Position numbers and translations under genes: made by a program
The notes under the pieces: generated by a model
Told to the model about the DNA's origin: nothing
The model's database searches: none
The model's input: the letters and a program-made list of their open reading frames with translations, nothing else
In this document: one piece after another, positions 3 through 5,081 of the stretch
How positions within the stretch are numbered: position 1 is the first letter of the stretch
Layout of the letters: every line of letters begins with the position of its first letter
From: Deltaproteobacteria bacterium RIFOXYA12_FULL_61_11
GTDB lineage: Bacteria > Bdellovibrionota_F > JAHFAK01 > YA12-FULL-61-11
Assembly (NCBI GenBank): GCA_001799195.1
Contig: MGSU01000282.1
Span: 1-5,906 of the forward strand
DNA length: 5,906 nt
Direction: 5' to 3'

Positions 3-434
3 CTCTACCTTCCCGAACCCCAGGCCAAGGCGTGGTGCATGCTGCTCGGGTTCGATCCTCTCCGACCGAGCCGGACCCTGCAACCCAGGGAAATCTCGAC
101 CTTGTTGGCATCTCTCTATCGGCAGCGGCTCCGTTGCACGGGAACCCGCGGTCTGGCTGAGGCTCAGGTGAGTCGGGGCGGCGTGGCCCTGGAACAGGTC
201 GATCCGACAACCCTGGAGAGCTCGCTCCACCCCGGCTGCCATCTCCTTGGAGACTGCCTCGACCTGTGCGGCCGCAGCGGTGGGTTCAATCTGCATCTCG
301 CCTGGAGCACCGCCCTGCTCGCCGCTCGAACCATCGTCACGGATCTCAACGGGACAGGAAGTCCTGCATCACCGGAACGACCTCTGCCCCGAGGTCCTCG
401 AAGACGAGATTCCCGGCCTCGCGGTAACGGATAG
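3..434 (+). CDS. HI0933/BaiN-like flavoprotein (NAD(P)/FAD-dependent oxidoreductase), C-terminal part
   Basis: This is the last 143 residues of a gene whose 5' end lies outside the window; the frame is open from base 3 to the TAG at 432-434. The family signature is clear: a SRGGVALEQVDPTTLES segment (about 181-226) leads into PGCHLLGDCLDLCGRSGGFN and LAWSTALLAARTI. This matches the HI0933/YhiN/BaiN pattern in which T.GGV, TMESK, GE.LDV.G..GGYN and a final alpha helix close the FAD site. Here the usual GE is GD. Members are cytosolic flavoproteins; BaiN is implicated in bile-acid reduction, but most have no known substrate, so none is inferred. The conserved domain ends near base 345. The last ~28 residues (from about NGTGSPASPE) are Arg/Pro-rich, look non-homologous and are antisense to the convergent hydrolase gene, which suggests loss of an earlier stop codon. 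Family assignment is firm; function is not. Confidence 0.85.
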   Translation, partial: LYLPEPQAKAWCMLLGFDPLRPSRTLQPREISTLLASLYRQRLRCTGTRGLAEAQVSRGGVALEQVDPTTLESSLHPGCHLLGDCLDLCGRSGGFNLHLAWSTALLAARTIVTDLNGTGSPASPERPLPRGPRRRDSRPRGNG

Positions 435-1224
435 TCCTACAGTCGTCGAAGACCCCCAACCAGCGGCGCAGTTCTTTCTTCCTGAACAGACGATCGCGCA
501 TTCCCCAGAGGACCAGGGCAGGCTTGTCGCGCAGGGAGGCTCGAGTGGTCCAGAGGTCGGCCAGCCAGTCCGAGGAGGCCGTGAAGTGCTCAACCAGCAC
601 GGCCGCGGCCCGGCGGTCAAGGGTCTTTTTCAGGGGCTCGAGATAGTGGGAGAGCTCCTCGGAAGGGATGCGGCGGCAGAGACTCCTACTGAGGTACAGC
701 TTCATCGGCCACGGCAGCCGCGCCGTCGCTTGGCGGCCGAGCCAACCGCCGAGGAGGTGTCCGATGAATTCGAAGTGCAGGTCGTTCCAAACCGGCCACA
801 TCCAACTGTTGCTGATCACGAGCTTGCTTACCCGAGCGGGGTGGTTGAGGCAGAACCGCAGGCCGATGGGACCTCCCCAGTCGTGGAGGACGAGGGTCAG
901 GTCCTCGAGTTCGAGGTGCTCGAGCAGGGCGGCCAGGTTCCGCGCGTGCTCGGCTGGACTGCCCCGCAGGGTCGCAGGCCGGTCGGAGAGGCCGAACCCG
1001 AGGTGATCGAGGGCGATGCAGCGATATTGCTCGCGTAACCCTATGATGACGTGTCGAAAGAGATACGACCAGGTCGGGTTACCGTGGACGAACACCACCG
1101 GTCGTCCCTGCCCCTCGTCGACGTAGTGCAGGCGGCCGAGGGCTAGGTCGAGGTACCTCGACCTGAAAGGATACCGGCCGCGGTCCAGCCAAGCGGGATC
1201 AGGGGTTCGATGAGGTTCTGGCAT
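346..1224 (-). CDS. Haloalkane dehalogenase-like alpha/beta hydrolase with Asn at the catalytic His position
   Basis: A 292-aa protein of normal length for haloalkane dehalogenases, which hydrolyse carbon-halogen bonds through an aspartyl ester. Seen in the sequence: an N-terminal WLDRGRYPFRSRYLDL start typical of the family; oxyanion/halide motif HGNPTWSY (H48, N50); nucleophile elbow LVLHDWGGP (D115, W116); a cap domain after SNSWMWP; and acid-strand motif WGMRDRLF (D244), placed as in subfamilies I and III. The catalytic base is missing: where family members read AGHF-QED, this one reads EAGNLVFEDL, with N272 (codon AAT on the minus strand, 409-411). Hydrolysis of an ester intermediate is therefore doubtful. 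ATG 1224 is preferred over the upstream ATG at 1425 because homology begins there, it avoids overlap with the upstream gene, and GGAG lies 11 nt upstream (8 nt from an adjacent in-frame GTG at 1227). It probably shares a transcript with the glycosyltransferase gene upstream. A related ester or epoxide hydrolase is the alternative. Confidence 0.85.
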   Translation of the reverse strand: MPEPHRTPDPAWLDRGRYPFRSRYLDLALGRLHYVDEGQGRPVVFVHGNPTWSYLFRHVIIGLREQYRCIALDHLGFGLSDRPATLRGSPAEHARNLAALLEHLELEDLTLVLHDWGGPIGLRFCLNHPARVSKLVISNSWMWPVWNDLHFEFIGHLLGGWLGRQATARLPWPMKLYLSRSLCRRIPSEELSHYLEPLKKTLDRRAAAVLVEHFTASSDWLADLWTTRASLRDKPALVLWGMRDRLFRKKELRRWLGVFDDCRTIRYREAGNLVFEDLGAEVVPVMQDFLSR

Positions 1225-1268: not shown

Positions 1269-2882
1269 CTACTCGGGTGCTCGAGGGCTGTCCAGGTTCG
1301 GACCTTCGCGGTGGCAAGAGGGGAGCAGCCGATAGAGTTGGAAAGAGGGCCCGGGTCTCGAGACGGGACAATAGCCCGAGAACGGCAGGTACCAGGCATC
1401 TTGTTGGTCGTAAACCGTAGAACAATCTCCTGCGGGAACAGTGGCCGGGAAATCGCGTGCGAGGCGATAGCAGCGTTTCAACACTTCCTCAAGTCTCTCG
1501 GGTTGAGTGCTGTAGAGTCGGAGCGGCGAGCGCTCGATCAAAGCCCAATCGGGCAAAACAGGCAGGGGATGAGGGGTGGCGACCAAGGTTCTCAGGTCCA
1601 GGGAGCGCCTCGAGAGAAGAGGCTTGCCGTAATAACTGCTTCCCACTCCGAGATGGTTCGAGGCGGGCAGCAGTCGGTCCACCGCCCGTCCCACCAGGAC
1701 TCGGTTGTCCTCCCGGCCGAGCAAGGTCCCTGCACGGAACATGCTGACGAGGGTAGGGGTCAGGATCACGAGCAGGAGAAAGCCCAGGAGCGGTGGTCCG
1801 AGAGAACTGCCGGCAGCGGAACGCGGCCTTCGTCGGAACAGCCCGAGCGTCGTGGCTGCTGCAGCCAGGAGCAAGAAGGGGACGAGAGGCAGCGCGTGCC
1901 GGGTGAAGACCGTCTTGGCGGAAGCGGTGAAAACGTAGTAACCGACCGGGAAGACTTGGACCACCAGCCAAGGCCACGTGCGAGGGGCGAAGGTGGGACC
2001 GAGCCCGAGCAGGCCGAGCAGGAGGAGGGGCCAACCGCAGCCGTACCAGAGAGACGTCGTTACGTGGTAGAGCCAGGCCGGTTCGAGCAGAAGCCCCTGA
2101 TGACCCTCGCCGAGATGCTCGAGTTCGGCCCCGAGGTCGCCGAAGAACGTCTCGGGATCGAGGAGCCAATAGGGTGTGGTCAGGGTGAAGGCGAGGAGGG
2201 CAGTGCTTGCCGCAATAGACACATTGACGAGCATGGCTTGCCGCTCGCCTTTGTGCCGGGAACGACGCAGGAAGATGAAGACGAGGGGAAGGAATAACAG
2301 TCCGGCGTTGTATTTCGTGCCGGTTGCCAGACCGAGCAGGAGTCCTGAGAGCAGGGCATTGCGTTTGCTCGGCTCTGCATCGAGACGAAGGAATTGCCAG
2401 ACCGCGACGATCGCGAGGAAGATCATCAGAGAATCAGGGACCCCTGCCTGGGATTGCCGCACGTGGAGGTGGCAGACGCTGAGAAACAGGGCAGCGAGCA
2501 ATCCTCCGGAAGTGCCGAGGACCCTGCGTCCGAGCCCGTACAGGGCATAGACCGACCCCACCCCGGCTGTCAGGGAGACCACTCGGGCCGTGAGCACGAA
2601 CAGTGCGGGATCCTGTTGGACCCGTTCGAGTACCCCGAGGAGCCCGTCGTACCAGCCCAACCCGAGACCGAGGAGGACATGGAACCCGTAGAGCAGAAAC
2701 AGCAGGTAGGGATACAGGGTGGGCCAGTGGAAGTCGCGCGGATTGAGGTCGGCGGTACCGAAGCGCAAGGCCTCGAAGACGGCGATGGTCTCGTCCGGCC
2801 GAGCTTCCAGGCAAGGCAGGCCGAAGCCGATCCCGCGCAGGCGCAACCATGTTGCGAGGCCGAGGATCGCAAAGAGTACCAC
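1269..2882 (-). CDS. Polytopic membrane glycosyltransferase, ArnT/PMT (GT-C) type
   Basis: About 537 residues. GT-C enzymes of this kind move a sugar from a polyprenyl-phosphate donor to lipid, glycan or protein on the outer face of the inner membrane. Seen: a first hydrophobic segment (2-22), then a loop with the acidic pair PDE (D30-E31) and NPRDFHWPTLYPYLL, the usual place and look of the GT-C catalytic aspartate loop. About ten more hydrophobic segments follow (roughly 57-76, 95-117, 125-140, 150-165, 177-206, 218-236, 282-297, 304-320, 331-349, 364-381), with GLATGTKYNAG and RHALPLVPFLLL as typical conserved stretches. A soluble, probably periplasmic tail covers 385-537. The start is uncertain: GTG at 2882 is the nearest standard codon but has no clear ribosome site, while CTG at 2909 lies 6 nt after AGAGGT. 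Longer ATG starts would run antisense through the HD gene and are rejected. Donor and acceptor are unknown. Confidence 0.8.
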   Translation of the reverse strand: MVLFAILGLATWLRLRGIGFGLPCLEARPDETIAVFEALRFGTADLNPRDFHWPTLYPYLLFLLYGFHVLLGLGLGWYDGLLGVLERVQQDPALFVLTARVVSLTAGVGSVYALYGLGRRVLGTSGGLLAALFLSVCHLHVRQSQAGVPDSLMIFLAIVAVWQFLRLDAEPSKRNALLSGLLLGLATGTKYNAGLLFLPLVFIFLRRSRHKGERQAMLVNVSIAASTALLAFTLTTPYWLLDPETFFGDLGAELEHLGEGHQGLLLEPAWLYHVTTSLWYGCGWPLLLLGLLGLGPTFAPRTWPWLVVQVFPVGYYVFTASAKTVFTRHALPLVPFLLLAAAATTLGLFRRRPRSAAGSSLGPPLLGFLLLVILTPTLVSMFRAGTLLGREDNRVLVGRAVDRLLPASNHLGVGSSYYGKPLLSRRSLDLRTLVATPHPLPVLPDWALIERSPLRLYSTQPERLEEVLKRCYRLARDFPATVPAGDCSTVYDQQDAWYLPFSGYCPVSRPGPSFQLYRLLPSCHREGPNLDSPRAPE

Positions 2883-2915
2883 GCGATAGGGGAGTCGAGT
2901 TCCAGGCAGGACGGG

Positions 2916-2921
2916 ACCTCT
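2916..2921 (-). promoter_or_regulatory. Possible ribosome binding site for a CTG start of the glycosyltransferase
   Basis: On the minus strand AGAGGT lies 6 nt before an in-frame CTG (2909-2907). That codon would add nine residues (LPGTRLPYR) with two arginines ahead of the first membrane segment, as expected for a cytoplasmic N-terminus. GTG 2882 has no comparable site. CTG starts are rare, so this is only a suggestion. Confidence 0.3.
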
Positions 2922-2946
2922 GTGCCGGTTGTGACGCCGCCGACGA

Positions 2947-2954
2947 CAGTACTG
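2947..2954. repeat. 8-bp palindrome CAGTACTG in the divergent spacer
   Basis: A perfect 8-bp palindrome. Its core ACAGTACT (2946-2953) recurs inside the larger palindrome at 3033-3047, 93 bp downstream. Both copies also lie near a CTCCGGCTT string (2957-2965 and 3024-3032). The repeated core between two divergent genes could be a pair of operator half-sites, but an 8-bp palindrome alone is weak evidence. Confidence 0.35.
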
Positions 2955-2984
2955 CGCTCCGGCTTTGCAGACAAGTCGGAGGTG

Positions 2985-3819: not shown

Positions 3820-4521
3820 ATGAAAAGATTGTCGATCGCGCTGCTCGCGTTGTTGTTCGCGTGCAGCGGCGGCGACCAAGACCGTACTCGCGCCGTACAG
3901 GACGACATCGGCACTGCGATGTTCCTGGTCGCGGACGAGGACGCCGATGTCGCCGAGCAATTGGCCGCTGCGGGGGTAGACCTGGCGTCCTTGCAGCAAG
4001 GGGCCGCCGACAAATCGGCGGAGAATGAAGAGGCGGAAGCCGCCAAGGACGAGGACAACGGTGACAATGGCATGGCGAATGCCTTCGGGAACCTCGGTGG
4101 AAGCCCATCCTTTGGTTTCCGGCCCACCACCTTCAAGTCCCCGACGATCGGATCGACCATGAGTACTCCGGCGCTCGGTTCCATGCCTCAATTCGGCCTG
4201 GCGAGGTTCGGCAGCGTCTTTACGAAGCCATCCTTCGTGGTGACGGAAGGCCAGGTATCCGCCGCTCTTGAGAACATTTGCCTATCCGACTATGTGTCCG
4301 CAGAACAATTTCCCGATGGAGCAACCGTGACTTGCAAGAAGGTGTCCTATACGGTCGGCGGCCAAGTCAACATCTCCATGGAGGTCAAGGGCGATAAAAT
4401 CGAGATGGACGTCAACGGGCAGAAATGCACCGTGAGCGCCAGCGAACTCGCCACGATCATGGCCAACCCGACGGGGCAAAACCCTTGCGGGGGATCTGCC
4501 AACAACGACGAAGAAGAATGA
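3820..4521 (+). CDS. Predicted lipoprotein of unknown function
   Basis: 233 aa; I do not recognise the family. The N-terminus MKRLSIALLALLFAC-SGG has a short basic and hydrophobic signal and a lipobox ending LFA|C15, so lipid attachment at C15 is likely although Phe at -2 is unusual. Ser at +2 would favour the outer membrane in enterobacterial sorting rules. Residues 16-60 are polar and probably helical, 61-84 are highly acidic and alanine-rich and look disordered, 85-135 are Gly/Pro/Ser/Phe-rich, and 138-225 look like a small folded domain with beta strands (VTCKKVSYTVGGQVNISMEVKG region, 170-191). That domain carries C154, C172, C203 and C223, enough for two disulfides. The tail is NNDEEE. 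It follows a good promoter and ribosome site and probably shares its transcript with the next secreted protein. Confidence 0.8.
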   Translation: MKRLSIALLALLFACSGGDQDRTRAVQDDIGTAMFLVADEDADVAEQLAAAGVDLASLQQGAADKSAENEEAEAAKDEDNGDNGMANAFGNLGGSPSFGFRPTTFKSPTIGSTMSTPALGSMPQFGLARFGSVFTKPSFVVTEGQVSAALENICLSDYVSAEQFPDGATVTCKKVSYTVGGQVNISMEVKGDKIEMDVNGQKCTVSASELATIMANPTGQNPCGGSANNDEEE

Positions 4522-4601: not shown

Positions 4602-5081
4602 ATGAAGAAGCTTATGGTGGTGACGGTAATCGCGCTCTTTGCAATGGTGGGTGGTATGGCCCAGGCCAAGGATTTGGCCGTCGGCTATGACAGCGGTTTG
4701 AGCATGCTGACGGTGCGCAAGGCCCTCGGGGAGAATAACCTCGACCTCGGCCTCGGCCTCGACTTCGACAACAGCCTCGGCAGCGACAAGTTCGCCCTCG
4801 GGATGGCCGCGTTCTACCTGATGCCCTTCCCGATGCTCCAAGGGGACGACAAGTTCAAGTTGCATATGTACGGCGGCGGCATCGGCAACCTCGACCACGC
4901 TGGGGACTTCTACTTCGCCGTGGCCGGCGGTCTGCAGCCCGAGTACTTCATCCACGAGAAGGTTTCCTTCGAAACCCGCATCGGCGTGAACCTGAACCTC
5001 GTCGACGAGGTGAAGTTCCAGACCTTCGGCAACGGGATGAACATTGTTAGCTCCTTGGCCTTCAAGGTCTACCTCGACTGA
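4602..5081 (+). CDS. Small secreted beta-strand-rich protein, predicted outer-membrane barrel
   Basis: 159 aa; I do not recognise the family. A Sec signal peptide is clear: MKK, a hydrophobic stretch 4-18, then MAQA|KD with cleavage after A22. The mature ~137 residues are rich in Gly, Phe, Tyr, Leu and Asp with alternating polar and non-polar residues. About seven or eight short strands can be drawn (around 25-38, 46-56, 63-74, 84-92, 102-114, 119-131, 136-142, 148-158). The protein ends FKVYLD, roughly like a barrel's final strand but with Asp, not an aromatic, at the very end. The size would suit an eight-stranded barrel; a soluble periplasmic beta-sandwich is the alternative. It lies 80 bases after the lipoprotein gene, separated by a hairpin, so the two are likely co-expressed in the envelope. 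Confidence 0.8.
   Translation: MKKLMVVTVIALFAMVGGMAQAKDLAVGYDSGLSMLTVRKALGENNLDLGLGLDFDNSLGSDKFALGMAAFYLMPFPMLQGDDKFKLHMYGGGIGNLDHAGDFYFAVAGGLQPEYFIHEKVSFETRIGVNLNLVDEVKFQTFGNGMNIVSSLAFKVYLD

Follow-up and report, generated by a model that had tools for sequence, protein, structure and literature searches.

Can a homologue of the haloalkane dehalogenases lose its catalytic base and still be maintained? The question is raised by the window, i.e., the whole stretch of 5,906 nucleotides that was analysed, which is an entire contig. The draft genome to which it belongs is fragmented (342 contigs, 4.64 Mb in total, 87% complete) and, judged from its make-up, probably metagenome-assembled. Positions 346..1224 of the reverse strand encode a protein of 292 residues, hereafter P0001, which its translation, Pfam and NCBIfam matches and an AlphaFold match mark as an alpha/beta-hydrolase resembling subfamily III of the haloalkane dehalogenases (HLD-III). 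Where the catalytic His base would be expected, it carries Asn.

Fold and active site of P0001

P0001 was assigned to Abhydrolase_1 in Pfam (108 bits), and its top NCBIfam match was PRK03204, haloalkane dehalogenase, with 196 bits, which is under the cut-off of 466 for that family. Among solved proteins, the nearest is Haloferax mediterranei DhmeA (8ooh, E 1e-73). We compared an AlphaFold2 model based on 53 aligned homologues (mean pLDDT 95.2) with solved structures; it matched DhmeA 8ckp_I with a TM of 0.93, a Z of 43.8 and an rmsd of 1.7 over 287 aligned residues, followed by HaloTag and DhaA with Z of about 35. DhmeA (PDB 8ckp/8ooh; PMC10503415) is 39% identical to P0001 and shares with it the fold, the nucleophile, the acid, the Asn and Trp of the halide site and the layout of the cap domain. 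However, the base of DhmeA is H286, whereas P0001 has N272.

The motifs of P0001 read H47-G48-N49-P50-T51-W52, H114-D115-W116-G117, W240-G-M-R-D244 and A270-G271-N272-L273, and in the alignment N49, D115, W116, D244 and N272 fall on the five catalytic residues of DhmeA. All of the codons concerned lie on the reverse strand. The halide-binding Asn is codon 49 (1078..1080; N63 in DhmeA), the nucleophile Asp and the halide-binding Trp are codons 115-116 (877..882; W116 aligns with W130), and the acid Asp is codon 244 (493..495; D258). Codon 272 (409..411) is AAT and aligns with H286, and the adjoining codon 273 (406..408) encodes Leu. The original prediction had named D115, W116, D244 and N272, all of which agree with the translation, and had placed the Asn-for-His change within 400-420, where the AAT codon indeed lies (411-409). 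Its halide-binding N50 has to be corrected, as residue 50 is Pro and the Asn is N49. Its assignment to the haloalkane dehalogenases can be narrowed to subfamily III, with DhmeA as the closest protein and the whole pentad in place except for the base.

In summary of its HLD-III features, P0001 is predicted to have an alpha/beta-hydrolase fold with a helical cap, its nearest structural match being a solved HLD-III protein, and it carries the Asp nucleophile in an HDWGG motif, the halide-binding Asn and Trp and the Asp acid, but N272 instead of the base His. By its modelled fold and four of the five catalytic residues, P0001 is thus an HLD-III homologue; because the base His is replaced, we do not class it as a complete haloalkane dehalogenase.

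Position 272 among homologues

We surveyed position 272 in 135 aligned homologues, 65 of which keep N49, D115, W116 and D244 (N/D/W/D rows). His was found in 63 of these 65 rows, Thr in one and Asn in one, namely P0001 alone. Because His occupies 63/65 N/D/W/D rows, position 272 is not a noisy variable column. The remaining 70 rows comprised 43 with His, 15 with Arg, 5 with Asn, 2 each with Ala, Gly and Lys, and 1 that was unaligned at this position. A search of actinobacteria brought in two further N/D/W/D proteins that have Thr and 15 that have His. The enlarged tally, from which one duplicate locus is excluded, stands at 82 N/D/W/D rows (78 His, 3 Thr and 1 Asn); therefore, loss of the base His with the rest of the pentad intact is rare but real. 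In the open-access literature, we found no published natural haloalkane dehalogenase without this His.

The three Thr proteins are HLD-III-like and are encoded at three actinobacterial loci: L146 (2992-3870), L178 (3992-4870) and L182 (genome G761; 1480-2358 of the reverse complement). They resemble P0001 in that N, D, W and D are intact and the base His is replaced; they differ from it in having Thr rather than Asn, in their separate origin and in the divergent HxlR-type regulator gene that adjoins each of them on the opposite strand (identified by Pfam in two cases and by sequence similarity at L182). Two of the proteins, WP_064689802.1 and WP_058227821.1, are encoded on the Rhodococcus plasmids NZ_AP023173.1 and NZ_CP015203.1 and are 96.6% identical; the third, from L182, shows 71% identity. 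Between the two plasmid copies, dN was 0.020 and dS was 0.224 (dN/dS of about 0.09), indicating that purifying selection acts on the plasmid Thr protein even though its His is gone. For natural loss of the His, the Thr clade makes a stronger case than P0001 does. Other Rhodococcus plasmid proteins (L148, 2971-3882; L181, 1971-2882), which are 56% identical to the Thr proteins and also have a helix-turn-helix (HxlR) regulator nearby, show the reverse loss in the active site; they keep the His, and their nucleophile Asp is changed to Asn.

The base His is also replaced, by Arg, Asn, Lys, Gly or Ala, in HLD-like families of Armatimonadota, many of them from genome family f6. The phylum name was taken from L055 and L057, at which the encoded proteins are identical to ones from genomes sharing the family code. 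Asn is conserved at the base position in five genomes (L123, L172, L174, L175 and L177), and Arg or Lys occupies it in a larger group; one Arg pair gave a dN of 0.031 and a dS of 1.25 (dN/dS of about 0.025). Like P0001, these families keep D115 and D244, and one subgroup has the same replacement, Asn; unlike in P0001, their halide site lacks its Trp and usually its Asn too. Loss of the base His is thus natural and recurrent, and it is kept by selection in related families.

To count the losses, we used a maximum-likelihood tree of 86 rows that was built with column 272 left out. The minimum number of changes between His and non-His on this tree was five. A clade joining P0001 with the Thr protein was rejected by the AU test (p 0.0003), which supports an origin of the His loss in P0001 that is independent of the Thr clade. 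A clade of P0001 with the Asn subgroup of Armatimonadota was likewise rejected (p 0.015). Joining P0001 with the whole 12-row His-less group of Armatimonadota was not rejected (p 0.19), and the tree itself places P0001 apart from that group; going by the tree, the loss in P0001 is likely independent of this group as well. As the Thr proteins have a separate origin and the Armatimonadota proteins have lost halide residues, neither proves the function of P0001. The Thr clade and the Armatimonadota families establish that anomalies of this kind exist in nature, whereas Asn272 of P0001 rests on one sequence in one fragmented assembly; at the level of that sequence, the anomaly is real.

Integrity of the gene and its pocket

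The original prediction had also allowed for a decaying gene. The ORF of P0001 is unbroken, and its stop codon (346-348) coincides with the C-terminal end of homologues. We called a column conserved if it was so to at least 90% across the 52 further sequences in the alignment used for modelling, and P0001 keeps 31 of the 32 such columns; column 272 is not among the 32 because other rows without His pull it under 90%. The codon score of the gene and its GC content by codon position are ordinary for its genome. The sequence thus lends no support to decay. A recent inactivation, in which hydrolysis was abolished by a single-base substitution (CAT to AAT, for example) and the gene now drifts with no function selected, would differ from this in that a very recent loss leaves no trace. 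We regard it as a rather improbable account. It would need one base, and it fits the position of P0001 as the sole Asn among the 65 N/D/W/D rows. In addition, the gene has six codons for Asn, of which five are AAC and codon 272 is the sole AAT, a pattern that fits a recent change without being diagnostic of one. In a sample of the genome, AAT accounts for 29% of the codons for Asn, and CAT for 34% of those for His; AAT at 272 thus does not separate an old Asn from a recent one. Against such an inactivation stand the intact ORF, the conserved columns and the normal codons, and also the pocket around N272, which appears remodelled, as though the base had not changed alone.

The remodelling was assessed against the 63 His-bearing relatives with the same four residues. 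L273 is Tyr or Phe in 60 of them, L210 is Phe or Tyr in 59, L246 is a smaller residue in 62, and none has Phe at the position of F214. With overall divergence allowed for, P0001 ranked second of 65 in pocket unusualness, a rank computed on positions picked post hoc. Leu or Met at 210 was also found together with His in actinobacterial relatives; hence, the change at position 210 was dropped as proof of a co-change with the base. Because the positions were chosen post hoc and some vary in lineages that bear His, the comparison is a hint, and not proof, that the pocket of P0001 may have been altered along with the base.

The pocket also bears on a plainer explanation, an assembly or sequencing error in which the real codon is CAT (His) and one base of the contig is wrong. 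The source is a single fragmented metagenome-assembled genome, as described above, and one base would suffice. However, L273 and the other pocket changes are not explicable by one wrong base, and the neighbouring genes have intact reading frames and catalytic motifs. Furthermore, about 1 to 4% of the sampled rows with the same residue background have lost the His naturally, and a base error at precisely this codon would presumably be expected less often than that. We therefore consider an error very improbable.

Upstream of the P0001 gene lies a PMT_2 glycosyltransferase gene on the same strand (1269..2963, reverse; ORF list and Pfam; stop codon 1269-1271, start not fixed). As the gap between the two genes is 44 bp, they are possibly carried on one transcript. 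The convergent neighbour is an HI0933-like gene (Pfam). Neither neighbour points to a substrate. No conserved gene neighbourhood was seen among the homologues inspected, the HxlR link being limited to the actinobacterial group. A homologue of P0001 was absent from the one other genome of the same phylum that was searched (G001), and a search of a phage collection for relatives gave no match; one partial relative was found in the viral contigs searched. The end of the HI0933-like flavoprotein ORF (3-434, forward strand) overlaps the P0001 gene tail to tail by 89 nt (346-434), a stretch that includes codon 272. The HI0933-like profile match stops near 330, and the remaining tail of this ORF may be a true overlap or the product of a frameshift. 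Elsewhere in the window, 3820-4521 and 4602-5081 (forward strand) encode two secreted-looking proteins with no Pfam match, the first of which has a lipoprotein-like start (LLALLFACSGG).

Likeness to HaloTag7 and proposed chemistry

In haloalkane dehalogenases, the Asp attacks the halogen-bearing carbon while Asn and Trp hold the leaving halide, and in a second step water activated by the His cleaves the resulting ester (PMC6100074). The original prediction had argued that substitution of this His traps the covalent intermediate, and published variants bear this out: H272N in HaloTag7 (PMC8388125) and H272F in DhaA (PMC13376172) both block ester hydrolysis and trap the intermediate. Focused evolution of DhaA H272F yielded the combination K175M+C176G+Y273L, which bound a fluorescent probe about 10,000 times faster (PMC3475669). 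At the base site, HaloTag7 reads PGLNLLQED (PDB chains) and P0001 reads EAGNLVFED; i.e., both have an Asn-Leu pair at the base position, with the Asp nucleophile and the Asn/Trp halide site intact. P0001 thus has the sequence features of a self-labelling haloalkane dehalogenase, in which the Asp is present, the base is absent and the N-L pair is in place. HaloTag7 differs in being an engineered DhaA of HLD-II, about 28% identical to P0001, with further changes that include tunnel mutations. In addition, the covalent reaction of HaloTag7 is proven, whereas that of P0001 is inferred by homology.

By this homology, D115 would still bind and, given a suitable electrophile, would carry out an SN2 attack, with N49 and W116 stabilising the leaving group. 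The ester-hydrolysis half of the cycle would be lost because N272 should be unable to activate water. P0001 would then perform the first half reaction and stall, which is the chemistry that H272N confers on HaloTag7, and its role would be to bind, covalently or otherwise, and not to turn over a substrate.

The ligand need not be the one that the family name suggests. Dehalogenase activity is reported to be weak in HLD-III proteins (PMC10503415); therefore, the natural ligand of P0001 may be something other than a haloalkane. The natural ligands of HLD-III proteins are mostly unknown, and OleB is a beta-lactone decarboxylase. OleB proteins are HLD-III homologues like P0001, and their residue set is N/D/W/D/H; however, they form a separate clade, keep the base His and are fused to OleC at L009 and L108. 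We considered whether P0001 is an OleB and rejected this, as P0001 falls outside the clade with the OleB-OleC fusions. No OleC above the cut-off was found in the window's own genome (87% complete).

These relatives leave some room for a changed chemistry, in which P0001 employs another base (another His, or assistance from the substrate) or a reaction that dispenses with water activation, just as relatives of OleB take beta-lactones in place of haloalkanes. Consistent with this are the low dehalogenase activity of HLD-III, the action of OleB on beta-lactones, the differing pocket residues and two His of P0001, H156 and H213, that are rare among relatives in column composition. However, each of the 63 sampled His-bearing relatives that share the four residues relies on His at 272, and the remaining His of P0001 are either frequent in these proteins or not known to point towards the site. 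The position of P0001 outside the OleB clade and the OleC result in its genome likewise argue against it. On balance, changed chemistry seems unlikely to us.

The reading that we favour, and hold to be somewhat more probable than all others together, is that P0001 is a true and probably maintained HLD-III homologue that does not hydrolyse, would still be able to bind and is perhaps alkylated at D115. It is favoured by the four intact pentad residues, the match to DhmeA, the conserved columns and the ordinary codons, and further by the recurrence of similar His loss elsewhere under selection, the diverged pocket and the precedent of HaloTag7. A more specific form of this reading would make P0001 a natural self-labelling protein, an HLD-III single-turnover alkyl trap serving as a sensor, scavenger or carrier; we advance this tentatively, as a minority view. 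Its proposed route, Asn at the base with Leu beside it, both of which HaloTag7 carries, is equally tentative.

If Asn272 is real and maintained, nature has made the substitution that underlies the HaloTag label. Proteins with N/D/W/D and no base, i.e., P0001 and the Thr clade, would allow a direct test of whether a stalled alkyl-enzyme ester can be a natural function. The survey also bears on annotation. Many proteins of this branch that could be annotated as haloalkane dehalogenases by similarity are without halide residues, nucleophile or base, which makes the name unsafe for them. Among the HLD-like proteins of L070, L129, L130 and L167, mostly from Armatimonadota, the nucleophile Asp is changed to Gly and the His is kept. 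In a TDF clade of 35 to 39 tree rows (support 100/98), which includes the Pontibacter loci L036, L038-L041, L043 and L045, Thr and Phe replace the halide-binding Asn and Trp and the Asp and His are mostly kept; the name haloalkane dehalogenase is doubtful for this clade.
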